Virus record (IMG/VR): IMGVR_UViG_3300031566_000240
Span: 1-30,963 of that record
Length of the DNA stretch: 30,963 nt
Strand: one strand, 5' to 3'
Source of the DNA: a virus
Of the stretch, positions 7,293 to 30,963 are shown piece by piece. The translations under genes and the position numbers were made by a program. Each line of letters opens with the position of its first letter. Positions within the stretch are counted from its first letter, which is position 1. The notes beneath the pieces are model-generated. The model was not told the DNA's origin. It searched no databases and saw only the letters and a list, made by a program, of their open reading frames with translations.

Positions 7293-8159
7293 ATGCCAAA
7301 CAATATTACTCCAGAAAGTGTATTTGACGAGCAGATTCGTTCCGGGCAAGAGGCCATACAACAGGAATTTGAAACTAACCTGAATCTGCTTAACAATCAG
7401 CGTAAACTCAATCTCATAGAACCTGATAAATATCAGTTTGAGGCTCAGAAAATATATACATCGGCAAAACAAAAGGCCGGTCAATATACGATGAAAATGA
7501 ATGAGACTAAGCAGAAGCTTCAGAATATGCGAAGTCTGGTAGATCAGGGATCTATAGATCCAGCCCAGGCAGATGCCGCTGCCTGGAAGATGATGGGTAT
7601 AACTATTAGTCAACCCCAGGAACGAACCCCATCTGGTATGCCGTTTTCTCCACAACAGCAAATAGGTTATGAACCTTCCATAGATCAATATACAGAGGCA
7701 GTCAAACCCCATTTCTGGACCAATGTTCCGCAGGGTAAACTGATTGGGCAATACCTTAAATGGAGAGAGATGCAGGGATATTCAGATCGCACTCCCCGAC
7801 AACAATATCAACTTGATAAAATATGGGATGCTAAGATGAAGTCTGATGATGATCTGAAGTGGAACCCCGAAGATGCTGCCATCATTCAACTACGGGCCAA
7901 ATCAACTGATATATTTCAGCGTGTTCACACAGCCAGGTTATCAACCCCGCTATCCTCGCATTTAACTGCTGCGAAACCAAAGCCTTCTGGACCAGATAAA
8001 TCTGCGGCTGAAGTTGCACCGATGCGGTTTCATGCGTTTACGGGGCATCAGTTGGCTACACCCGCAAGATCAGAACCAGTTATTTATGCACGTAATTCCA
8101 AAACTGGTCAAAGAATTATGTCTAATAATGGTGGGAAAACATGGCAACCAGCGAAATGA
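7293..8159 (+). CDS. Internal virion protein candidate (288 aa)
   Basis: The start is preceded by GAGG at 9 nt. The protein is Gln/Lys-rich and helical: residues 8-90 carry long amphipathic helices (QEFETNLNLLNNQRKLNLIE). A Pro-rich middle and a short C-terminal module (YARNSKTGQRIMSNNGGKTW) of a type seen at the ends of phage structural proteins follow. It overlaps the giant downstream gene by 19 nt. I infer a virion-internal or ejection partner of the 1698-aa protein from this tight coupling. Confidence 0.55.
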   Translation: MPNNITPESVFDEQIRSGQEAIQQEFETNLNLLNNQRKLNLIEPDKYQFEAQKIYTSAKQKAGQYTMKMNETKQKLQNMRSLVDQGSIDPAQADAAAWKMMGITISQPQERTPSGMPFSPQQQIGYEPSIDQYTEAVKPHFWTNVPQGKLIGQYLKWREMQGYSDRTPRQQYQLDKIWDAKMKSDDDLKWNPEDAAIIQLRAKSTDIFQRVHTARLSTPLSSHLTAAKPKPSGPDKSAAEVAPMRFHAFTGHQLATPARSEPVIYARNSKTGQRIMSNNGGKTWQPAK

Positions 8160-11100
8160 ATTTACCCCCTGGGTTTGAATTAGAAACAGAGACAGAGACA
8201 CCGGCTGAAGTACCCGAAGGATTTGAAGTAGAGCCGATGAATCTTCCTGAAGGATTTGTTCTCGAAGAAACACCGGCTATGCCGGAGCAAGAGGGAGATG
8301 TGCTAAGTCAAATTGGTGGTGCTTTCATGCGTGGGTGGATGAGTCTCGGAACTGCTGTGGTTGATATGCCTAAGCATATTGTGACCCAGGTTAAACTCCC
8401 GGTTATGGCAACTATGGCTGATGAAGTTCTTGGGGCCAAAGACCCAAAACAGAAAATGACTAAACTTCAGGATATGCGTAAAGTAGAGGATTTCTTTGGA
8501 ACCGTTACTACTGAACTTGGTCGTGCTGGTGAATGGCATAGAGAAGGAGTTAAGGCCATAGTTGATAAACACCCTGAATGGGAAACTGAACCTCCTAAAA
8601 ACTTTGTTGATCTGGTAACAAGCCCGGATAAGATTGCTGTTGCCCTGGCTGAATCAACTCCTATTTTGCTTGGAGCGGGTATATTTACTGCTGCTGGAGT
8701 GCCTAATATGGCTATAGGGCTTATGTATGCCGCTGAGGGTCAACAGGCTTACGATCAGGCCATACAGGACAATGCCTCTAAAGATGATGCTGAAGCTGCT
8801 TATCATATTTATGGATCTGTGTCGTGTGCTCTGGAACAGATGCAACTTCAAGGAATAATGAAAATAGGCAAGGGAATGTTTAATGCCGTAACAAAGAGAA
8901 CGGCACAAAAAGTTGCTGCTAAGGGAATGAAAAGTCTGACTATGGACGTTATCAGAGTAGCCGGTCAGGAAGCCTTGGAAGAAATATCACAGGCTGCCTG
9001 GCAGGACATGACAGCGAAAATAGTTTATGATAAATCTATTCCAGGAGGTATAACAGGGACCATAGATCGGTATGCTCAGGCAGGTTTGATCGGTGGACTC
9101 ATGGGTATTATACCCGGTGCTGGTGGTGCAGCCGTTGGTAAATTCGCTGTAGCTACATCTGATGTCCGGGGGCACGTGCTGTCTGGTGTGGCCGAGGAAG
9201 ATATAGCCCAAGATCCAGATTTAGCAGATGAGGAAAAAGAAAAACGTCAGCTTATTGTGGGCAATATCCGTACCAGGCTTGTACAGAATGTTGTTCAACA
9301 ATTTCCTAAAGAAGTGACTAATCAGGCCACGCTTCAGGAAGTTGGCGATGCTATAGCAGGGCATCTTGGGGTAGAGAAGAAAATAAATTGGATGTGGTCT
9401 ACCCGTCCAGTTTTTAAGAGAATGGGATGGCATAGGAGCCGGGGGCCAAAGCAAAGTGAAATTACTATCAATGCTGAACACCCTCGTCATATCAATGATC
9501 AAAAGGCCATCAAAGAAACCATCATACATGAAATAGGCCATATTATGCGACCCCCGGAGGTAACAACTAAGGGTAGGCGTAAGATTCATCACAAAGCTTT
9601 CAACCAGTGGTATGAAAATAATAAAGGTGCTTTGGAACAACTTGTAGAACAACAAGAGCCTGTGGCAGAGCCAGTGGGAATGGACGTAACACCACCATCT
9701 ATAGATTATAGTGTGGCAACCACAAAGTCAGCTTTGCCGGATCGCAGGGGTGGCAAAAATCTATGGATGCGAAAGCAACATGATGCTGCCAGCAACAAAG
9801 GCAGACATTTACTAATTCAGTTTTCTTCACCATTGTTGACCACTGAAGAAGATCCAGAGGCTAAGGCATATTTTGACAAACTCTATAGTACACGTAAAGG
9901 TTATGATAGGCTTGAAGATTTTTGGGAAGTACCCGGTTGGATGGGAGCAGTAGCAAACACTGTTCCTAATTCCGATGCCTATGTTGTCAGGGATGTAGAT
10001 GAGGCTATACAGTTTCTTGCCAAATCTGGGTACAAGAAAATATTCTTTAGTTCACTTGATATAAATAAAGACTTTATCCGTCAGATAGCGGAGAATTTTG
10101 ACGGTGAAGTAATAGTGGGAGGATATGCACCGGCAGGATATTTTAAGGGCATAGATAACGTAAAAACATACAATAGCATAGAGGAAATGGCTAAGGTTGA
10201 AGGCTATGGGTTCAAGCCTGGTATTGATATGAGTTTCTTTGCCGGGTCAAGTGTGCAGGCCCGTTTGTGCATGTCTAAGGGTTGTTTGCATAAGTGTGCT
10301 TTTTGTACTGTGCCCAAGGGAGTAACTGAAGTAACGGATGAAATGATAGACAGCCAAATTGAAGCTATGGCCGATCTTGATGCCGAATATGTATACCTGG
10401 ATGATAAGACCTTTGGACAGAGTAAAAACTACAAGAAACTTGTGGGCATAAGAAAAAAACTTCAAAAGAAAAATCCAAGATTCAAGGGCTTTATAGTGCA
10501 GACTACTGCTGCTCAGATGGAGAAATTCTCTGATGAGTTTTTGCAGAAATCTGGAATTAAATATATAGAACTTGGCATTGAATCGTATAATGACCCGATT
10601 CTTAAAAAACTCCATAAACCAGCGAGAGAAGCACTCATAGATAAGGCCACAGAAAAACTTCGTAAAAACAGTATTGCCCTTATTCCAAATATTATGATCG
10701 GTCTGCCTGGTGAAGATGCTACTACGTATAGGCGTACCCTGGATTTTATTCGTCGTAATTTTGATATAATATCTCATCTCAATATCAACAATTTAGCTTT
10801 GTACGAGGGTACAGAACTGGCTGATGTTTTGGAGGCCAAGTCCACTCTTGATGTTGATGAAAATACAGTAGTAAAGTCATTCCACGATAATCCGCAGGAC
10901 CATATCAATTTTTCTAAAGAGGTATTTGCCCTGGGTAATGAACTACTGGATAAACCTTCAATAATTGAACTTGCTGAACCTCCGGCTGAAGCCAGAGTGG
11001 AGAAACCCACTAAAGATATACGCCGACAGTTTCTTATCAAAGGCCACCAGATCCCACGTCAACTCGGAATGGACGAAATAGAACGACGCAAGTATATGGG

Positions 11101-13237
11101 GGCTATCACAGGCAAGACTTCCATGAAAGATATGACGCTGAAGGAGATGCGTCAGTACGTGGGCCAACTGGAAGCGGCTGCTGTTGAGGTTGGCATTACT
11201 CCTGAGACTCCTGAGATGCCTGAAGATCCCACCGGAGAAATGATTCAGTCCATAGATCAGGCACGTCGTAAACCGATCCCGGAAGATATTGAAGAATTAA
11301 ATAAACCTAAATTGCAACAGTGGTGGGACCAAACAAAGAATATGCTTACTACTGCGTATGATCAGTTCCGTAGGATGGAGCGTACTCTCGAATTTCTTGA
11401 TGGGCATAAGGAAGGTCCAAACTATAACAATATATGGAAACCCATTAAAGCCGCTGAAGAAGCTACCGTTGAAACGACCAATAGCGACATAGCCAATTTC
11501 ATGTCGATCCTGGAGGAAAAAAATATACCTGTTGACCAATGGGTAGGCAAAGCCCAGGATATAGAAGGAGAAACAATCTCCGGCAAGAAACGTACCTTCA
11601 GGCTTACCCCGGCACAGCGTATCGGTGTTCACACCCTAAAGCAGAATAAGAATGGTCTACGCTATCTGCGACGCGGCATGGGGTTTTCTGATGTTGATCT
11701 CCAGCGTATAGAAGAATCTATGAGTAATCAGGAGAAGGAAGTTGCTGAGTGGTTGCTCGATCAATATGATAAACAGTTTCCGATCCTGGAAAAGACAGCC
11801 AATATTGTAGGTTTAACCGTAGGGAAAGAGATTAGATATGCCCCAATTATACGGAGAGATCTGGATCTTGAATTTCAACCCGATTTCTTGTCCGAACTTG
11901 CCAGTACATTTACTTCCGAAAAGACCGGCCCCGAAGCTGGTATGATCCAGGAACGTAAACCTGGGGCCTATGGAAAACTGGAATTGGATGCTTTTGTATC
12001 CTATATGTATAATCTAAGCCGGGTTAATAGGTTTATCAACATGGCTCCGGTTGCAGCTAATCTCCAGATAATAATGCGAAACAAGGAATATAAAGCTACT
12101 GTTAATTCAAGGACCGCAGGCCAGGGGACAAGGTTACTCAATACTTTTATAAAGGATTCTGTGCGTGGTACAACTGGTGAATCATATACTTGGTTTGAGC
12201 GTTTTGTTTCTATTTTTAGACGAAACGGCATAGCATACGCTATCGGCTGGAGCATACCGTCAAGTCTCAGGCAGACGCTATCAATGTCTAATGCTGTAGC
12301 CGTAGACCCACTTATGACTAAATACACGCCTATAAATATAGCGAGGGCTGCTTATCCAAAGGGCTATCAGGCTATGGAAAAATTTGTCCATGACCGATCT
12401 GCTGTAGCCAGGACCAGAAGTTTTGATCGAGATCTGAGAAGAATTTGGAATAAACGGACCATAACAAAACGGCTCAAAGGCAAGTCATTATCCCCCCCAT
12501 CCCTGGCCTGGATACGTTGGATGGATCGTCATACTGTCGTAGTGGCCTGGAAATCTCTATATGACACGGCCTTAGAAAAGGATATGAAAGAACAGGATGC
12601 TATAGCATACGCCGATAAGTGGATCGGGCGAACTCAGCCTATGGCAAATCCGAAGGATCTCCCGGCGTTCTACAGGGGTGGAGTAATGGAACGGCTTGTC
12701 ACCACATTCCAAAACCAGGTTAATCAAAACTTCAACTTCTATCTGCATGATATAGGTGGGGCATATAGATACGGCAAGATCAGCCCCGCTATAGTTGCCT
12801 ATAGAACTATGTTTTCCTGGATCTTACCGGCCATATTATATGGCATGATTGGCCGGGCGAGATTGCCTAAAAAACCGAGCGAACTTATTATTGATCTTGC
12901 AACATATCCACTTGCCGGTGTTGTACTGTTTGGCCGATGGATTCAGGCAGCTATTAAGGGATGGGGGGATAGTGGAACTGTTGCAACCATAGCTCCAACA
13001 GAAGCACAGAAAACCGTAGCTGCTGCCAGACGGGGCAATCTTTTTGATGTGATAATTCACGCCAGTAAAGCCATTGGTGCCGCTACTGGAATGCCGACTG
13101 CTCAGATGGTTCGCACAGCAGAAGGGGCAGTAGCCCTTGCAAAAGAAGAAACAAAAGATCCCCGTAGGTTGATCTATAGTAAATGGGCACTTGAAGAAGG
13201 CAAACCAAAAAAGAAAAGAGGATTGTATTATGACTAA
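8141..13237 (+). CDS. Giant polyvalent (putatively ejected) protein with zinc-metallopeptidase motif and B12-type radical SAM module (1698 aa)
   Basis: Order of parts by residue: three degenerate L/V-P-x-G-F repeats (8-39); hydrophobic Ala/Gly-rich segments near 167-200 and 314-333; a zincin motif HEIGH (463-467); a Rossmann-like stretch (about 600-690, FFSSLDIN then GEVIVGGYAPAGY) where B12-binding domains sit in B12 radical SAM enzymes; the radical SAM signature CLHKCAFC (C715, C719, C722); radical SAM-type strands ELGIESYND (about 811) and IMIGLPGED (about 851). After ~940 the sequence returns to phage polyvalent helical segments, with further hydrophobic stretches near 1553-1572 and 1585-1605. 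Giant proteins of this kind are ejected with phage DNA; here that is inferred from size, position and membrane-like segments. The B12-ligand DxHxxG motif is not seen. Substrate unknown. Confidence 0.85.
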   Translation: MATSEMNLPPGFELETETETPAEVPEGFEVEPMNLPEGFVLEETPAMPEQEGDVLSQIGGAFMRGWMSLGTAVVDMPKHIVTQVKLPVMATMADEVLGAKDPKQKMTKLQDMRKVEDFFGTVTTELGRAGEWHREGVKAIVDKHPEWETEPPKNFVDLVTSPDKIAVALAESTPILLGAGIFTAAGVPNMAIGLMYAAEGQQAYDQAIQDNASKDDAEAAYHIYGSVSCALEQMQLQGIMKIGKGMFNAVTKRTAQKVAAKGMKSLTMDVIRVAGQEALEEISQAAWQDMTAKIVYDKSIPGGITGTIDRYAQAGLIGGLMGIIPGAGGAAVGKFAVATSDVRGHVLSGVAEEDIAQDPDLADEEKEKRQLIVGNIRTRLVQNVVQQFPKEVTNQATLQEVGDAIAGHLGVEKKINWMWSTRPVFKRMGWHRSRGPKQSEITINAEHPRHINDQKAIKETIIHEIGHIMRPPEVTTKGRRKIHHKAFNQWYENNKGALEQLVEQQEPVAEPVGMDVTPPSIDYSVATTKSALPDRRGGKNLWMRKQHDAASNKGRHLLIQFSSPLLTTEEDPEAKAYFDKLYSTRKGYDRLEDFWEVPGWMGAVANTVPNSDAYVVRDVDEAIQFLAKSGYKKIFFSSLDINKDFIRQIAENFDGEVIVGGYAPAGYFKGIDNVKTYNSIEEMAKVEGYGFKPGIDMSFFAGSSVQARLCMSKGCLHKCAFCTVPKGVTEVTDEMIDSQIEAMADLDAEYVYLDDKTFGQSKNYKKLVGIRKKLQKKNPRFKGFIVQTTAAQMEKFSDEFLQKSGIKYIELGIESYNDPILKKLHKPAREALIDKATEKLRKNSIALIPNIMIGLPGEDATTYRRTLDFIRRNFDIISHLNINNLALYEGTELADVLEAKSTLDVDENTVVKSFHDNPQDHINFSKEVFALGNELLDKPSIIELAEPPAEARVEKPTKDIRRQFLIKGHQIPRQLGMDEIERRKYMGAITGKTSMKDMTLKEMRQYVGQLEAAAVEVGITPETPEMPEDPTGEMIQSIDQARRKPIPEDIEELNKPKLQQWWDQTKNMLTTAYDQFRRMERTLEFLDGHKEGPNYNNIWKPIKAAEEATVETTNSDIANFMSILEEKNIPVDQWVGKAQDIEGETISGKKRTFRLTPAQRIGVHTLKQNKNGLRYLRRGMGFSDVDLQRIEESMSNQEKEVAEWLLDQYDKQFPILEKTANIVGLTVGKEIRYAPIIRRDLDLEFQPDFLSELASTFTSEKTGPEAGMIQERKPGAYGKLELDAFVSYMYNLSRVNRFINMAPVAANLQIIMRNKEYKATVNSRTAGQGTRLLNTFIKDSVRGTTGESYTWFERFVSIFRRNGIAYAIGWSIPSSLRQTLSMSNAVAVDPLMTKYTPINIARAAYPKGYQAMEKFVHDRSAVARTRSFDRDLRRIWNKRTITKRLKGKSLSPPSLAWIRWMDRHTVVVAWKSLYDTALEKDMKEQDAIAYADKWIGRTQPMANPKDLPAFYRGGVMERLVTTFQNQVNQNFNFYLHDIGGAYRYGKISPAIVAYRTMFSWILPAILYGMIGRARLPKKPSELIIDLATYPLAGVVLFGRWIQAAIKGWGDSGTVATIAPTEAQKTVAAARRGNLFDVIIHASKAIGAATGMPTAQMVRTAEGAVALAKEETKDPRRLIYSKWALEEGKPKKKRGLYYD

Positions 13238-20986: not shown

Positions 20987-21597
20987 TCTATTATCCTCAA
21001 TTCAATTAGCTTAGTTCTGAGTTCATCTGCCGAATGAACAAGCAGGTATACGCCATTATTTGCTTCTATATTAGCCTGAAACCATTCTTGATCCGGGCTT
21101 TGCTTGCCGCCTACTCTACGCTTTACTTCAATAGCCAGGAATTTGCCATCAGGACAAATGCCAATAATGTCTGAAGATCCTTTGGTCCCAAAGCCGATAT
21201 ATCTTGATCCCATTTGAAATACGCCAGTATTATTACGCCAGGCGAATATGCCAACTTTTTTTAGAAACGCTTTACACTCTTTAAGTACAGTCGCTTCGAG
21301 ATCTTTTTTGGGCTTTCTTGGTTTTCGTTCTGGAATTTTGGGCGTAACATCCAGTTGAGGATCAAATGTCACTTCAAGAGCAAGGGCATCTGGACTAAAA
21401 TTGAGCTTTTGTGCTGCCATTTTCCAGCCAGCTTCCCATAGTTTATATGCTTCTGTTCCTGGACGATATGGATTTGGTATTGCAAGTGTTGATTCAGGAT
21501 TATATGCTTTACCACCCTCGGCCATGATAGCGAATTTCTTTGCTTGCTTTTGTAGTTTAGCCTTTTCTATTAGGATATTTTGCCGTCTATTTCTCAT
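20983..21597 (-). CDS. VRR-NUC nuclease with N-terminal RMF-like segment (204 aa)
   Basis: The C-terminal half (about 100-204) is a VRR-NUC domain: helix around E101, GSSDIIGICPDGKFLAIEVK with D143, E157 and K159, and Q170. The family cuts structured DNA such as Holliday junctions and flaps. The N-terminal half contains NPYRPGTEAYKLWEAGWKMA (42-61), which resembles the ribosome-modulation-factor/phage RMF-like motif, then a basic linker (ERKPRKPKKD). It overlaps the polymerase palm gene by 11 nt and the next gene by 4 nt, so it is part of the replication operon. Confidence 0.8.
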   Translation of the reverse strand: MRNRRQNILIEKAKLQKQAKKFAIMAEGGKAYNPESTLAIPNPYRPGTEAYKLWEAGWKMAAQKLNFSPDALALEVTFDPQLDVTPKIPERKPRKPKKDLEATVLKECKAFLKKVGIFAWRNNTGVFQMGSRYIGFGTKGSSDIIGICPDGKFLAIEVKRRVGGKQSPDQEWFQANIEANNGVYLLVHSADELRTKLIELRIIE

Positions 21598-22462
21598 ATT
21601 TCTTTCCCGTTGCTATTTCAACATCTACTGGTAATCCCGCTGCCCACTCCGGTACAGACTTCATTATCTGTTCTACAATCATAGAAGTAAGCAATATATC
21701 TTTATCGGGTACAATACATACCACTTCATCGTGGACATGGAGCACAATAGGTATGCCCTGTTTTTCTATTTCCAATATCCACCACCCCAACAGGTCACGG
21801 GCTATGGCCTGGATTATGTTCTCCACCAGGCTACCACCCCACAGTGCTCCATAATGCCACCGGATTTCAGATCTATTGAGGGTCCGTTTGAGCCGGGCGT
21901 GGCGGTATCTGAGGCATCGACCCGATGGAAGTTGGATTATGGCTGTTCCATCTTCATTCCAAAAAGTAAGCAATGTTTTGGCTACCCATCCTTCAGACAC
22001 AAAGTCACTACCGTAAGCCATTACTTTATCTGGATATTTCAACACCCACTTAAAACACTTTTCAACCGTATTCCATAGTTTAGGGATTCTGGCATACTTA
22101 CTACGATACGTATCTATAATATACTTTATGAATGGAAGATTATATTGCCCAGATTCAAATAGGGGTCTAAGTGCATCATTCTCCAGACATCGAGAATAAA
22201 ATTTGTCAGCACCCATCCCGTATCCTGCACCAAGTATGGCATCTTTTCCAAATCCACGCCGCAACTTCAGCAGCTTCGCAACAGGCTCAGGATCAGTTTC
22301 ATTCGGCTTGTGAATATGACATTTGAATAATTCTGCTGCAAGGGTAGAATATATATCTTCATTGTTGGCAAAGCCCTGGGTAAGATCATCTTGACCGGCT
22401 AACCATGCCAATGCCCTTGCTTCAATCTGAGCAGAATCAGCTATGATCATAGATTCATTCAT
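21587..22462 (-). CDS. polA: Family A DNA polymerase, C-terminal polypeptide: palm and fingers (291 aa)
   Basis: Motif A IIADSAQIEAR (D9), motif B around RGFGKDAILGAGYG (R69, K73, Y81) and motif C HVHDEVV (H244, D245, E246) are all present, so the catalytic metal ligands are intact. The protein lacks exonuclease, thumb and the TGRWSG segment, which lie in the separate upstream polypeptide. The start overlaps that gene's stop as ATGA, so the two chains should be made in similar amounts and are expected to assemble. The gene name refers to family, not to host orthology. Confidence 0.85.
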   Translation of the reverse strand: MNESMIIADSAQIEARALAWLAGQDDLTQGFANNEDIYSTLAAELFKCHIHKPNETDPEPVAKLLKLRRGFGKDAILGAGYGMGADKFYSRCLENDALRPLFESGQYNLPFIKYIIDTYRSKYARIPKLWNTVEKCFKWVLKYPDKVMAYGSDFVSEGWVAKTLLTFWNEDGTAIIQLPSGRCLRYRHARLKRTLNRSEIRWHYGALWGGSLVENIIQAIARDLLGWWILEIEKQGIPIVLHVHDEVVCIVPDKDILLTSMIVEQIMKSVPEWAAGLPVDVEIATGKKYEK

Positions 22463-23616
22463 TCGGTTATTATCAACTCCCGTATTTGCCCGATCAATGG
22501 ATGCAATGCTCTCATTCTACCCCGGCCACCAAAGTTTTGCGGATTTATGCCTTGGGTTCCACTCCAACGGCCCGTATGTCCACCATAATAATATAGAGGT
22601 ATCCGCAGTTTACCTCCAGAGGCTTTGGCTTGGGCAACCATAGACTTGATACGTTTTATATGATTGGGCCAGGAACTTATGGCCTGTTTTGCTATTGCTA
22701 ATTGTCTAACCTCTGGATTCTTATGCTGGAGAAGATACTTCATTCCATCATCATTCTGTGCCAGGGCCGGTATTTTTCCAGGACCAGTGATCGGGATCAT
22801 GTTTTTAGTAGGTTCGCCTGGTTTTACTGGTAATAGTTCCTTGCCCAAAGCCTCTTGAATTATCCTGGCGAACGAAATGTCACCCGATATATCTTCAGCC
22901 GTATGCCCTGTAGCTTCGACAGCAGCATCCAATTCTGCTTGCATTTGTTCTATTAGTTCTTTGGCTTTAGCATAATCTAATGTCAACCGGGGTTCAAGAT
23001 ACATTTTCAGAGTATGCCGCTGAAGCGGTATTTCAAGTTCTGGATTTGTGAGTAATGGTAGAAACTTTCGGAATAATTCTACTTCTATTTCAATATCATT
23101 GCGACAATACTCAACCATAGCTGCTATATCAATTTCGGCTGTATGCTTACCGAGGAATTGTTTAGTATCACCTTTCGGCTGTAAACCACAGGCAGGAGCT
23201 ACATCCTTCATTTTATGACTCATACGAGCATCATAATATCGCAATAGATTATCAATATCAATAATATACAGTGGTACAATGCCAAAATGGACTTGCATTA
23301 GGGTAATATCAAACATTGCATTTTTGACTACTACAGTACAGCGTTCCAGGTTCTTGCCGTAATTTGTTTGCAATATATTGATCCATTGGCTTATCCTATC
23401 TGCATCTATGAATTGAGAATTAGCGTTGACCGCAGCAAATGGCTGGTGCATTTCAAATATGCCGAAACCGTGTAATTCAAAACGAGGATCGGTCAGGTAT
23501 TCTATCGTTGACATTTTACTAAGGCTGTACTTGCTGTCGAAATACGTTTCAAAATCAATGATCAGGGCCGTTGTGGGCCAATTAACAGATTGTAGAACAT
23601 CTTGCCAGTTCATCAT
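22459..23616 (-). CDS. polA: Family A DNA polymerase, N-terminal polypeptide: 3'-5' exonuclease and thumb (385 aa)
   Basis: The start at 23616 overlaps the stop of the preceding mini-gene (ATGA), which decides it. Exo I IIDFETYF (D21, E23), Exo II VVVKNAMFDITLM and Exo III EYCRNDIEIE give a complete DEDDy proofreading site. After the helical thumb comes GGHTGRWSGTQGINPQNF, the conserved segment just before motif A. The protein then stops at RELIITE, just short of the DxxxIEAR motif A strand carried by the next gene. This is the point where uninterrupted phage polymerases read straight through. Confidence 0.85.
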   Translation of the reverse strand: MMNWQDVLQSVNWPTTALIIDFETYFDSKYSLSKMSTIEYLTDPRFELHGFGIFEMHQPFAAVNANSQFIDADRISQWINILQTNYGKNLERCTVVVKNAMFDITLMQVHFGIVPLYIIDIDNLLRYYDARMSHKMKDVAPACGLQPKGDTKQFLGKHTAEIDIAAMVEYCRNDIEIEVELFRKFLPLLTNPELEIPLQRHTLKMYLEPRLTLDYAKAKELIEQMQAELDAAVEATGHTAEDISGDISFARIIQEALGKELLPVKPGEPTKNMIPITGPGKIPALAQNDDGMKYLLQHKNPEVRQLAIAKQAISSWPNHIKRIKSMVAQAKASGGKLRIPLYYYGGHTGRWSGTQGINPQNFGGRGRMRALHPLIGQIRELIITE

Positions 23617-23792
23617 ATAAAATCTGGACAATCGGCGGGTATAATGTGGTAGGTATAAGAGTTTAAGTGTTCAAACCGCCAAACACATTCTAACCAGCAC
23701 CACCTACCATCTTTAAGTTGAACAGGATACCACGCAAACCATTTTGTTTGCCGGTGTATTTTTTGTTCTTTGTATGTTTTACCCCATATCAT
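23613..23792 (-). CDS. Trp-rich mini-protein (59 aa)
   Basis: The start has a perfect GGAGG 7 nt upstream and overlaps the previous stop (ATGA); the stop overlaps the polymerase start (ATGA). The sequence (QTKWFAWYPVQLKDGRWCWL, then ECVWRFEH) has the WFAWYPV...DGRW.WLE pattern I associate with small phage proteins of unknown function. It is probably a small soluble beta domain. Confidence 0.65.
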   Translation of the reverse strand: MIWGKTYKEQKIHRQTKWFAWYPVQLKDGRWCWLECVWRFEHLNSYTYHIIPADCPDFI

Positions 23793-27124: not shown

Positions 27125-27601
27125 TTACCCCCCACATCCCAAGCAAACAATAGCAGATGGAACAGGTGGACAAAACAGTTCATTGCATATTGCACATCGC
27201 TTAGGCTGTCGAAGTCCATCAGATGATCTAACCTGCTGTCCCGCTGCTTCTGCTGGTGAGGGTATGTCTGCCAACTCCGCAGGCAATATACCCTGCCGTA
27301 TCCGCAATTTAGTGGCAAGATATACCACAGCACACCACGCAAGTGCCCGGTCGTGACTTTCATCTGTCAAGCCCATTTTTTCCTGGGCGATATGCCGTTC
27401 AAGTGAGTTTATTAGCTCACTTAGCGGTATGCCCTTTTCCCAATTTCTGCTACCGTGTAATGTAGCACCTTCTTCAAAATGTTTACATATTTCAAGGTAG
27501 GCATCCCCAGGAAAAAGAACAGGAGTACCCTTATCTTTAGCTGGTTGTTTGTGTGCTCCGGTGCTAAATTGACGTGCTTCGCCTTCTTCTTTTTTGATCA
27601 T
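27125..27601 (-). CDS. MazZ/DUF5664-like dNTP diphosphohydrolase with C-terminal zinc ribbon (158 aa)
   Basis: Residues 9-100 follow the DUF5664 pattern: EARQFSTGAHKQ, HFEEGATLHGSRNWEKGIPL, SLERH and SHDRALAWC. Family members hydrolyse dATP/dGTP, and one branch (MazZ) serves synthesis of 2-aminoadenine DNA. The C-terminal part adds CAICNELFC (C136, C139, C144) and CLGCGG (C153, C156), a zinc-ribbon-like tail I do not associate with the family. No PurZ is visible in the window. The start overlaps the upstream stop (TAATG). Confidence 0.7.
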   Translation of the reverse strand: MIKKEEGEARQFSTGAHKQPAKDKGTPVLFPGDAYLEICKHFEEGATLHGSRNWEKGIPLSELINSLERHIAQEKMGLTDESHDRALAWCAVVYLATKLRIRQGILPAELADIPSPAEAAGQQVRSSDGLRQPKRCAICNELFCPPVPSAIVCLGCGG

Positions 27602-28044
27602 TATTTTATCCTCACTTGATCCAGGGTAACAACATCGTTATAGTATCTTATGCTGGATTTTTCATTCTCCTGTAGCCAAGCATTAGTAAGCCGTCCATCT
27701 TCAGCAACACAAATAATTTGACCCTTGTAGGTGGAGCGTAAAATGTAATCTGGTAATCGCAGAATCACGCGGTCATACGCCGGTCCGCTAAATTTTCCCA
27801 ACCTCACTGCTGATAGTGGAACGGGTTCTTGCCTCTTGGTAAAAACTTCTTCACCATCAAGGAGTAGCTTTATTTCACCCTTATGTGCATCAACTGAAAA
27901 GCTCAAACTTTCTTTGCCTGCAAATAATTGTACTTTCATACTTTTCTCTTTTCTAACATACCACCATGTTTGTCCACAAAAATCAACATATTTGGTTCCC
28001 AACGAATATTGTGGAGTCTTGTCAAATTTACTTGTATCTATCAT
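27601..28044 (-). CDS. Unknown protein with YxxGTKY motif (147 aa)
   Basis: The start overlaps the previous stop (ATGA). The N-terminus PQYSLGTKYVDFCGQTWWYV resembles KYRIGTRYIDGIKQVFRYVK of the 58-aa protein upstream, so the two may be paralogues or share a beta module. The rest is beta-rich (YDRVILRLPDYILRS, GQIICVAEDGRL). No enzyme motif is visible. Confidence 0.5.
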   Translation of the reverse strand: MIDTSKFDKTPQYSLGTKYVDFCGQTWWYVRKEKSMKVQLFAGKESLSFSVDAHKGEIKLLLDGEEVFTKRQEPVPLSAVRLGKFSGPAYDRVILRLPDYILRSTYKGQIICVAEDGRLTNAWLQENEKSSIRYYNDVVTLDQVRIK

Positions 28045-28319
28045 TCTTCCAATGGATAGCCAGAGGCCAAATCATCAAATTCAGAATCACCGTCTATCCA
28101 TTGACGAGCCTCTAATGCAGCAGGCACAACTTCCTCGTCAATACCGCTATGACCATATTTATCAAAAATGTCAGTGCTATCTAAGTTATTTTCCAAAACA
28201 TCAATTTGAGCATCTAATTGAACCAAATTGTCAGTCCCAAATACGCTATAAGGACGAACTTTTGGTCTGACTTTTTTCAATGCTTCAATCTGTATTTTTA
28301 TTTCTGCTGGAGTTTTCAT
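28041..28319 (-). CDS. Helical phage protein of unknown function (92 aa)
   Basis: I start at ATG 28319, with GGAG 9 nt upstream. The sequence is helical and acidic: KTPAEIKIQIEALKKVRPKV, FGTDNLVQLDAQIDVLENNL and LEARQWIDGDSEFDDLASG. From memory it resembles a small phage early family with the fG.DN...idaqi.vL pattern. The stop overlaps the next start (ATGA). Confidence 0.55.
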   Translation of the reverse strand: MKTPAEIKIQIEALKKVRPKVRPYSVFGTDNLVQLDAQIDVLENNLDSTDIFDKYGHSGIDEEVVPAALEARQWIDGDSEFDDLASGYPLEE

Positions 28320-29486: not shown

Positions 29487-30149
29487 TCATTGGTAAAATT
29501 CCTCCGCTTCTTCCTTAGTCATAAAGAAGTGAATGCCGTGTGAACATTCAACGCGAATATCATCATCGAAGCTATCAGCGTGAACAATTTTACCTTCTTC
29601 ATAATAAAGTTTTTTTATTGATGAGTATCCGCTTCCCTTCAAAACTTTTACAAACGCGGCCCTGCATTTACGGCCCACAAGAGAAGAAATACGTTTAGCC
29701 GACGCTGGTATGCGTATTTTGATAACGCCGTTTCCAGTTTTTTTCCACGCATCAAATGCACCAGTTTCAGGGCATATCTGAAAGTCAGGCAGGTTTGCTC
29801 CCTGTAGGTCCGCATCCCGCAGGTTTGCCCCCCGTAGGTTTGCTCCCCATAGATTTGCCCCCCGTAGGTTTGCATCCTGTAGGTCCGCATCCTGTAGGTC
29901 CGCTCCCTGTAGGTCCGCATCCTGTAGGTATGCCCACCGTAGGTTTGCATCCTGTAGGTCCGCTCCCTGTAGGTCCGCATCCTGTAGGTCCGCATCCTGT
30001 AGGTCCGCTCCCTGTAGGTCTGCCCCCCGCAGGTCTGCCCCCCATAGGTCTGCTTCCCGCAGGTCTGCCCCCCGCAGGTCTGCCCTTACACCTTCTAATT
30101 TACCCTGAATCCATAATTCATGTTTCTCTAAAATTTCTTGTAAATTCAT
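29487..30149 (-). CDS. Pentapeptide-repeat protein with DUF5758-like C-terminus (220 aa)
   Basis: ATG 30149 has GGAG 6 nt upstream. After a 22-residue helix, 20 tandem A(D/N)Lxx pentapeptides (residues 23-122) form a right-handed beta-helix. The C-terminal domain includes GSGYSSIKKLYYEEGKIVHA then DSFDDDIRVECSHGIHFFM, matching DUF5758. Some pentapeptide proteins (MfpA, Qnr) mimic DNA and bind gyrase. Whether this one does is unknown. Confidence 0.8.
   Translation of the reverse strand: MNLQEILEKHELWIQGKLEGVRADLRGADLREADLWGADLRGADLQGADLQDADLQDADLQGADLQDANLRWAYLQDADLQGADLQDADLQDANLRGANLWGANLRGANLRDADLQGANLPDFQICPETGAFDAWKKTGNGVIKIRIPASAKRISSLVGRKCRAAFVKVLKGSGYSSIKKLYYEEGKIVHADSFDDDIRVECSHGIHFFMTKEEAEEFYQ
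29784..30083 (-). repeat. 20 tandem 15-nt units encoding pentapeptides
   Basis: The 15-nt units (on the plus strand mostly TAGGTCCGCATCCTG or TAGGTCCGCTCCCTG) are nearly identical at DNA level, including synonymous positions, and a larger block of about three units recurs. This is expected of recent slippage or unequal crossing-over rather than of an old beta-helix. Confidence 0.8.
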
Positions 30150-30179
30150 TTTAAGCTCCAATATTTTTCTATCCGTATT

Positions 30180-30374: not shown

Positions 30375-30647
30375 TCAAGCGGAATAAAACCCATCTTCTT
30401 CGGACCATCGTTTTAGCACGTCATTTACTCGGAGTATTTCCGCAATGCAGCAATGTGAAAAGTCACCTTCTTCTGATAGATAATCTATTGCTCTGGCCGA
30501 CACGCATAATAGTGTTCTATCATCGGCAAGAAAAACTTCGTACCAATCAGCATTTGCAACAAGCTTTATTTCTTCATCAATTAAGTGCGTATAATCTGGT
30601 ATCCGCACTAAATCATCCGGTATGTTTTGTCCATATTGGTCTTGCAT
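30375..30647 (-). CDS. Acidic unknown protein (90 aa)
   Basis: The sequence is mixed helix and strand (NADWYEVFLADDRTLLCVSA, then GDFSHCCIAEILRVNDVLKR) with an acidic end. It starts 1 nt after the stop of the neighbouring gene. No family is recognised. Confidence 0.5.
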   Translation of the reverse strand: MQDQYGQNIPDDLVRIPDYTHLIDEEIKLVANADWYEVFLADDRTLLCVSARAIDYLSEEGDFSHCCIAEILRVNDVLKRWSEEDGFYSA

Positions 30648-30648
30648 A

Positions 30649-30828
30649 CTAACCTCTTGCCGGTGTGCAAATACCGGCTTCGATTAAAGCATTTGCTTGT
30701 CTGCCAAACCAACCCTGAAGCTGCCAGCATAGGCCCGTATCAATAAGGTGCTGCCACGCCTCTATTTGTTCTTCTTCGGTTCCTTCTTCAAAACCTTCTG
30801 CGATTGCTACTGCCATATAATTGGTCAT
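30649..30828 (-). CDS. Small helical phage protein (59 aa)
   Basis: ATG 30828 has GGAGG 7 nt upstream. The product (EEGTEEEQIEAWQHLIDTGL, then CWQLQGWFGRQANALIEAGI) is a helical protein of a type I have seen in many phage early regions ('EAWQ.LIDTGL.W.LQGWFGR...LI..GI'). Function unknown. Confidence 0.65.
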   Translation of the reverse strand: MTNYMAVAIAEGFEEGTEEEQIEAWQHLIDTGLCWQLQGWFGRQANALIEAGICTPARG

Positions 30829-30842
30829 GTTTTATCCTCCAA

Positions 30843-30963
30843 TCAAAATGGAATATATTCTTCTTCTTCTTCTGCAAACGCAAATACCTGTTGATTTTGG
30901 TCTTGCCCAACACTATAAAAACTAACGGGCCGATAGCCTGCATCGGCTCGCGTTCCTGTCCAT
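30843..30963 (-). CDS. C-terminus of a minus-strand protein entering from the right edge (partial)
   Basis: The frame ends at 30843 and is open to the window edge. The visible part reads GYRPVSFYSVGQDQNQQVF and then ends with a run of Glu followed by YIPF. The acidic run plus I-P-F end recalls the C-terminal tip of bacterial SSB proteins (DDDIPF), which recruits partner proteins. With so little sequence, identity is open. Confidence 0.55.
   Translation of the reverse strand, partial: WTGTRADAGYRPVSFYSVGQDQNQQVFAFAEEEEEYIPF

Follow-up and report, generated by a model that had tools for sequence, protein, structure and literature searches.

The window considered here is the whole of the IMG/VR virus record IMGVR_UViG_3300031566_000240, a stretch of 30,963 bases, and its subject is a single gene that encodes a giant, polyvalent-type phage protein of 1698 amino acids (aa). 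Embedded in this protein is a two-domain radical S-adenosylmethionine (SAM) module that, judged from its sequence and predicted fold, is very probably catalytically competent. The explanation that best accommodates the evidence, offered tentatively, is that the module is an active, largely virus-restricted effector of a polyvalent protein that would be packaged in the capsid and co-injected, and that it would most likely act on DNA bases. The targets of phage-injected proteins are mostly unknown, and a radical-SAM enzyme would be a very demanding effector, since the host has to supply its iron-sulfur cluster, its SAM and its electrons.

The radical-SAM module in its giant frame

Residues 711-870 of the giant protein match Pfam PF04055 (Radical_SAM) above its cut-off (E=6.4e-12, 46.4 bits against 29.5), and the features that the original prediction had read from the letters, the CX3CX2C cysteines (C715, C719, C722) and the segments ELGIESYND and IMIGLPGED, are present. 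An AlphaFold model of the module, built on the family alignment A4 described below, has a mean predicted local distance difference test score (pLDDT) of 91.2 and a predicted template modeling score (pTM) of 0.88; it displays the proposed Rossmann-like stretch and aligns end to end with solved radical-SAM enzymes, which bears out the predicted fold. The closest structures in VIA-align were AprD4 (Z 23.8, 345 residues aligned, 3.5 Å) and MgmA (Z 23.4, 312 residues), followed by MiaB (Z 21.9), CysS (21.4), RimO (21.0), OxsB (19.3) and TsrM (18.6). The Rossmann-like half carries the family-conserved FWE(I/V)PxW and GGY motifs, and the VIA-align matches start at model residues 1-38, those to MgmA, CysS, OxsB and TsrM running from about residue 31 onward. 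The A4 sequence profile, compared with solved proteins, found TM_1862, AprD4, RimO and MgmA (E 5e-9 to 4e-8), and the best rows from BFVD, a collection of viral protein structures, were mostly radical-SAM proteins of low identity, with no close relative among them. Homology to free-standing relatives places the module at residues ~560-950 (window ~9818-10990); its location had been given correctly, but it is longer than proposed, a start at position 9950 clipping the first part.

On the model, the module is built like the B12-binding radical-SAM enzymes, in two domains of which the Rossmann half is reduced, and cobalamin binding is putative. AprD4 and MgmA (PDB 6fd2 and 9ccb) likewise pair a Rossmann domain with a radical-SAM barrel, at 15-16% identity to the module and with unrelated substrates; MgmA is described as B12-dependent (PMC11796369). 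The label "B12-type" in the original prediction therefore suits the architecture, but it finds no echo in the PF02310 (B12-binding) search, which does not list the window module at E<=10. Nine of 22 family members match PF02310 weakly at E<=1 (best E 0.001), and in two relatives the scores are 17.3 and 24.1 bits, below the cut-off of 32.1. NCBIfam scores of the module also lie under the respective cut-offs, with 71 bits against 600 for PhpK, 53.8 against 577.6 for HpnJ, 52.8 against 360 for ladderane B12 and 23.1 against 500 for AprD4; the sub-cut-off matches include the MiaB/RimO family. Methylthiotransferases of the MiaB/RimO type bind a second cluster through three cysteines of the N-terminal domain. 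Residues 560-714 hold one cysteine, C710, besides those of the motif, so that the auxiliary-cluster cysteines are absent from the N-terminal half and identity as a standard methylthiotransferase was rejected.

A sister contig, IMGVR_UViG_3300031565_000100 (G001, 43,012 bases), is 99.94% identical to window positions 2777-30378 (27.6 kb, 16 mismatches) and, on this sequence identity, is the same virus. None of the 16 mismatches falls within the giant open reading frame (ORF), and the protein is identical in both contigs. The claim that phage sequence flanks the module on both sides in one uninterrupted frame is upheld, and a chimeric contig or a neighboring gene as the source of the fusion was rejected, as far as can be told, on the one frame, the two contigs and the mismatch-free ORF, as well as on similar fusions in many other contigs. 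The window and G001 perhaps come from related samples, so that the two contigs may not be independent. Ten ATG, GTG or TTG codons lie at residues 498-601; with the upstream bases viewed by eye, none was conspicuous as an internal start for separate translation of the radical-SAM part.

By sequence comparison the module is the best conserved part of the giant protein. Its nearest relatives, in loci L175 and L129, have the same C-terminal backbone. L175 is 59% identical in the radical-SAM module and 35% in the C-terminal one, and over 246 of the first 410 residues its identity falls to 27%; L129 shows less of a difference, with 55% in the radical-SAM module and 48% in the C-terminal one.

A largely viral enzyme family and its giant carriers

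Searches of phage and plasmid collections with the window module returned relatives at 21-30% identity only. The module was aligned with the plasmid record of best E value (Mesorhizobium), and a search with this pair gave 26 viral loci, including this virus, of which 22 form alignment A4 (three near-duplicates and one fragment were left out). DDKTFGQ, GGY and GCxxxCxxC are invariant in A4. Scanning with A4 produced 69 viral loci, again including this virus, and three loci in 84,980 prokaryote genomes: a Planctomycetia metagenome-assembled genome (MAG) with a 2540-aa ORF, a Neptuniibacter MAG and Rhizobium smilacinae. All 72 family ORFs examined contain a CX3CX2C. The scans were pattern-based, so that all counts are lower bounds and the near-absence from cells is indicative only.

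Measured from stop to stop, 47 of the 69 viral ORFs span 713-4989 aa (some are cut by contig ends) and the other 22 span 263-562 aa; without near-copies and one fragment, 39 large and 20 stand-alone ORFs remain. Set against three cellular-genome loci, such numbers suggest a chemistry worth carrying. The search for the same fusion in other phage genomes, proposed with the original prediction, thus returned 47 large viral ORFs counting this virus. A first survey of backbone loci had suggested that the fusion was unique to this phage; that was wrong, because the backbone pattern search missed the closest radical-SAM giants, L129/L130 and L175. In a quick tree of 62 members and three outgroups, the embedded or stand-alone label changes twice, as compared with 18.4 changes in shuffles, a pattern expected if fusion happened a few times and the fused form then spread among many architectures; the root is uncertain because the outgroup did not stay in one group. 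Both the 390-aa domain and its stand-alone relatives of ~385 aa are small enough for purification.

Around the stand-alone genes, a D12-class DNA adenine methyltransferase directly precedes the radical-SAM gene in L189, L190 and L191, two of which are apparently one phage; this counts in favor of DNA as the target. Four loci (L172:6824-7105, L184:11435-11713, L181:7568-7870 and L126:4076-4345) share a small protein of ~90-100 aa, encoded close to the stand-alone enzyme; of the two copies scanned, one bears a weak resemblance to the phage SAM lyase PF23780 (E=0.003).

The backbone that carries the module in this virus occurs in other phages too. The giant protein, searched by tblastn against 50,697 phage records, found seven with C-terminal similarity that covers 20-37% of the query. 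Four matching phages were examined: vir555 (methanogen host), Cobetia Carin1, Pseudomonas HU1 and Caulobacter SR18. The C-terminal module (638 aa in the window protein, with a phrog_9880 match at residues 1291-1676) ends ORFs of ~2000-2860 aa in all four, and its identity in two other radical-SAM giants is 46% and 32%. Alignment of this module to IMG/VR gave 120 candidates; the 80 best were retained, G001 among them. The remaining 79 contigs and the four named phages served as backbone controls; they are one backbone group, and the IMG/VR records may be fragments. PF04055 exceeded its cut-off in none of the 83 control records; it occurred below cut-off in two, in the case of G065 (21.8 bits) in a 316-aa frame at another place in the record.

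Seventeen further giants were scanned with Pfam, comprising 16 viral ones picked from the 47 to limit size and redundancy and that of the Planctomycetia MAG. Radical_SAM was present in all 17, DUF7178 in six, NUDIX, ART-PolyVal and GNAT in two each, and LPD38, LPD23, GGDEF, DnaJ, DUF3293 and a histidine-kinase-type ATPase in one each. In the giants of L175, L129, L131 and L143, Radical_SAM was found with no polyvalent-type domains, accompanied in two by weak GemA or B12-binding matches, and the window giant itself gave no match to LPD domains. A same-backbone giant in IMGVR_UViG_3300014613_000063 (G157, locus L244; 36% identity over 485 aa) has pieces of the Rossmann half split by ~117 residues. 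It has no radical-SAM barrel and no motif cysteines, and DUF7178 is still encoded in that record; module and backbone can therefore be parted, and DUF7178 can be kept where the enzyme is missing.

In vir555 an annotated internal virion protein is followed by one gene and then by the giant gene. The protein of the window is probably present in the virion, as its homology and the position of its gene, the sole indications, suggest. Iyer et al. (2017; PMC5512222) described polyvalent proteins in phages and in conjugative elements and proposed that a zincin domain cuts them, and the window protein resembles them in being giant, multidomain and phage-borne, with a zincin-like HEXXH segment. The ART-PolyVal, LPD38, LPD23, GNAT, NUDIX and GGDEF domains in other giants with the radical-SAM module fit a polyvalent setting as well. 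The words "radical", "adenosylmethionine", "AdoMet" and "iron-sulfur" do not occur in the main text of Iyer et al., and "radical" is also missing from a jumbo-phage survey published afterwards in which that paper is cited (PMC7824862). The virion RNA polymerase of phage N4 is likewise a giant capsid protein that is ejected with DNA and has an HExxH domain. It differs in being an RNA polymerase, its HExxH being compared with those of zincins and of radical-SAM fusion proteins, and no radical-SAM domain is named in it in the available portion of PMC12633501.

Searches of open-licence literature, which for several topics covered the best-ranked entries only, found no polyvalent or virion protein with a radical-SAM domain, and "DUF7178" had no mention in what was searched. 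The parts are of known kinds, and the fusion, the largely virus-restricted family, and the fold and link of DUF7178 appear to be new, not having been seen in that literature. To this extent the remark in the original prediction that it knew of no described phage protein of this architecture stands; the fusion is not a one-off, because large ORFs house 47 of the family's 69 viral loci.

DUF7178 and the candidate target

The gene that may connect this enzyme to DNA is the one for DUF7178. A model of the protein (pLDDT 86.7) was best matched in VIA-align by the OGG2-type 8-oxoguanine DNA glycosylase MjOgg (PDB 3knt/3fhf; Z 11.1), and all 50 listed rows were helix-hairpin-helix (HhH) glycosylases or their homologues. 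A profile search also reached MjOgg (E=0.0015), the VTIDxx motif aligning with IIDRHILR of that enzyme. In OGG glycosylases a lysine and an aspartate have catalytic roles. Both K109 and D129 of DUF7178 are invariant in eight of eight sequences and occupy comparable places; the aspartate aligns with that of MjOgg and the lysine lies one residue off in the profile alignment. DUF7178 is thus found, on its predicted model, to have a HhH DNA-glycosylase fold, whereas identity to MjOgg is ~12% and glycosylase function is putative. By tblastn, the copy of this virus matches 24 of 50,697 phage records, and among the 15 matches listed three isolate phages (DroogsArmy, Francesca and Dorin) bear the label "glycosylase". 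A 198-aa DUF7178-like protein of Tunturiibacter phage Tunturi_3 (L243, 5893-6489) was deposited as "portal protein", which is very likely a mis-annotation.

Whole-record searches (E<=0.001) detected DUF7178 in 32 of the 69 radical-SAM records (28 over the curated cut-off) and in one of 83 backbone controls without the enzyme (1/50 and 0/33). It lies in the same ORF as the enzyme in 17 of the 32, the open frame being of the same length as the radical-SAM ORF, and in another ORF in 15. After dereplication the count is 26 of 60 radical-SAM records, and in records of 30-50 kb it is 12 of 20 against one of 61 controls; Fisher tests on both sets of counts assume independence, an assumption that phylogeny breaks. 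At eight of 24 loci the stand-alone enzyme gene has a DUF7178 gene no more than 7 kb away, identified by Pfam in six cases and by the whole-record search in two, and in L181 the two genes overlap by 4 bp. In the clade of the window, DUF7178 is a separate gene of ~200 aa in three of four records (G001, G082 and G127, and not G081); the window record itself scores zero because only the last 39 codons of the gene are inside.

Several observations weigh against a joint action of the two proteins on DNA. DUF7178 was not found in 37 of the 69 radical-SAM records. Taken in the reverse direction, five of 37 DUF7178 records have the full enzyme and two more have fragments, and tblastn of isolate phages with DUF7178 relatives revealed no member of the radical-SAM family. 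Foldseek gave no significant match for DUF7178 (no E below 0.4), and the best structural matches of the radical-SAM module act on sugars, proteins or tRNA, not on DNA. The relative in Rhizobium smilacinae (L127, 32% identity) stands in a small-molecule operon, beside genes for a class II aldolase, an aldehyde dehydrogenase, a cobalamin adenosyltransferase, a nucleoside phosphorylase and an ABC transporter. Finally, PF18909, which has no obvious tie to radical-SAM chemistry and was run as a specificity check on 45 of the 69 radical-SAM records and 50 of the 83 controls, shows a similar imbalance (16/45 against 1/50). The control lineage therefore differs in general gene content and the co-occurrence is partly lineage bias, so that the link to DUF7178 rests mainly on same-ORF fusion and gene adjacency. 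With all of this considered, whether the radical-SAM module works with DUF7178 is an evenly balanced question.

The sequence of events in the preferred explanation, action on DNA bases by an injected enzyme, would be as follows. The polyvalent protein would be packaged in the capsid and enter the cell with the DNA, where the chain may be cut by its own zincin segment. The host would supply the [4Fe-4S] cluster, SAM and electrons to form a 5'-deoxyadenosyl radical, which would alter a carbon of a nucleic-acid base (C-H modification), most likely in DNA. The HhH protein DUF7178, fused in other phages and separate here, might then flip out, exchange or excise the base, and the incoming genome would be protected or host DNA marked for attack. 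If true, this would be radical chemistry on DNA before any phage gene is transcribed, and the glycosylase-fold link makes DNA base chemistry a concrete, testable idea. A broader proposal, that the virus-restricted radical-SAM family and its glycosylase-fold partner constitute a new system of DNA-base modification (or modify-and-cut), mostly delivered pre-made inside a capsid protein, is unlikely on present evidence.

Some thymidine hypermodification pathways use a radical-SAM step, and one of their enzymes, aGPT-Pplase, has a glycosylase-related fold. In phage thymidine hypermodification several enzymes including aGPT-Pplase modify DNA bases (PMC11955845); the arrangement differs in the window virus, where a putative virion protein contains the enzyme as a fused domain. 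No match to aGPT-Pplase was found in six DUF7178 proteins (Pfam, E<=0.1) or in those of the window ORFs that were scanned, and no genes for 5-hydroxymethyluracil DNA kinase or 5-hydroxymethyldeoxyuridine synthesis were among the scanned part of the window and G001 genes.

A DNA base is favored as the substrate because of the DUF7178 glycosylase-fold link, and it is a possible substrate that we place somewhat short of an even chance; protein and RNA are serious rivals. An injected enzyme could instead have as its substrate a protein or RNA of the host, for example RNA polymerase, a ribosomal protein or tRNA, and so turn metabolism toward the phage, with DUF7178 incidental. This is rather doubtful, even with MgmA (a protein methylase), MiaB and RimO as structural neighbors at Z 21-23, the MiaB/RimO family among the sub-cut-off NCBIfam matches, and ART and GNAT domains, classes thought to be protein-directed, in these giants: the lack of auxiliary-cluster cysteines leaves no standard methylthiotransferase, and DUF7178 shares the ORF in 17 of the 69 records. 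The original prediction had proposed RNA, ribosomal-protein or cell-wall/lipid targets, and the one functional link found points rather to DNA. It is improbable, on the other hand, that the domain works in the producing cell and modifies, ahead of packaging, phage DNA, the virion or its own giant protein. The 22 of 69 viral members that are stand-alone small ORFs necessarily act after expression, and DdrB of phage P1 is cleaved before encapsidation (PMC5512222); the embedded form has nevertheless been kept across many giant architectures, which fits a benefit of the delivered chain.

There is only a slight chance that the module depends on cobalamin and serves, in the manner of PhpK, HpnJ or AprD4, to methylate or dehydrate a small molecule or a constituent of the envelope. 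The best NCBIfam matches (PhpK, HpnJ and ladderane B12) would suit such an enzyme, as would the weak PF02310 matches in 9 of 22 members and the cobalamin adenosyltransferase, aldolase and phosphorylase beside the Rhizobium homologue; those NCBIfam matches are all far below cut-off, PF02310 is under its own wherever bits were shown, and no biosynthetic enzyme was seen among ten scanned neighbors of stand-alone genes, a small sample. That the module is a catalytically dead structural insert is very improbable, for all 72 ORFs keep the motif cysteines and no other segment is as well conserved as the module, even if the G157 giant, which retains part of the Rossmann half without barrel or cysteines, indicates that the backbone can do without the enzyme.

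Features and gene setting of the window

Coordinates are collected in Table 1. On the zincin-like segment PF10263 scores 23.8 bits, slightly below its cut-off of 25.6, and on the segment that follows the radical-SAM module PF06252 (GemA) is also below cut-off (E=0.0027).

Table 1. Features of the giant gene and of the DUF7178 gene in the window
Feature	Window position	Strand	Basis
Giant polyvalent-type protein, 1698 aa	8141..13237	+	ORF calling; identical protein in G001
SprT-like/zincin metallopeptidase-like segment, HEIGH motif, residues 412-497	9374..9631	+	PF10263 E=4e-5
Rossmann-like N-terminal half of radical-SAM module, residues ~560-705	9818..10255	+	Alignment A4, AlphaFold model, VIA-align
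Radical-SAM barrel and C-terminal extension, residues ~711-950	10271..10990	+	PF04055 at 711-870; AlphaFold model
CX3CX2C cluster-binding motif CLHKCAFC (C715, C719, C722)	10283..10306	+	Motif kept in family
Family signature DDKTFGQ, residues 754-760	10400..10420	+	Invariant in 22/22 aligned viral domains
GemA/phrog_286-like segment, residues 958-1017	11012..11191	+	phrog_286 E=3.8e-6 at 958-1013
C-terminal module, residues 1061-1698	11321..13234	+	Common to giant proteins of other phages
DUF7178 gene 3' end, 39 codons and stop	30843..30963	-	Whole gene, 203 aa, in G001 at 27599-28210

The giant gene is the last of a rightward gene run and overlaps the upstream ORF (7293-8159) by 19 bp. In G001, terminase, portal and major-head matches share the strand of the giant gene, and the right end of this contig overlaps the left end of the window by 127 bases, which is also a k-mer size of assemblers. 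The overlap suggests that the two ends join; if they do, the terminase, portal and major-head genes lie upstream of the giant gene, which would then be the last of the late structural genes. Both the first and the last 127 bp of the window have matches at other places in G001, in the manner of assembly-graph overlaps, and 458 bp of the window (30379-30836) are not in G001, with a 10-bp repeat that flanks both borders.

Genes for a primase, a Sak4-like annealing protein, an exonuclease, a split DNA polymerase and other replication functions occupy the opposite strand of the window. The polymerase (phrog_17) is divided between ORFs 21587-22462 and 22459-23631 (-), which overlap by 4 bp; the upstream ORF covers the central part of the profile and also matches an exonuclease-subunit family, and the downstream ORF continues with the next part of the profile. 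The ORF at 27125-27601 (-) contains the N-terminal domain of a dATP/dGTP diphosphohydrolase (PF18909, E=1e-12). This gene prompted consideration of a 2-aminoadenine genome, which was rejected: adenylosuccinate synthetase (PF00709) occurs in one of the 45 radical-SAM records searched, and not in this virus. A 224-aa ORF at 29487-30161 (-) has internal repeats (stretches of 77-82% identity, some ~105 bp apart) and matches several PHROGs of unknown function.

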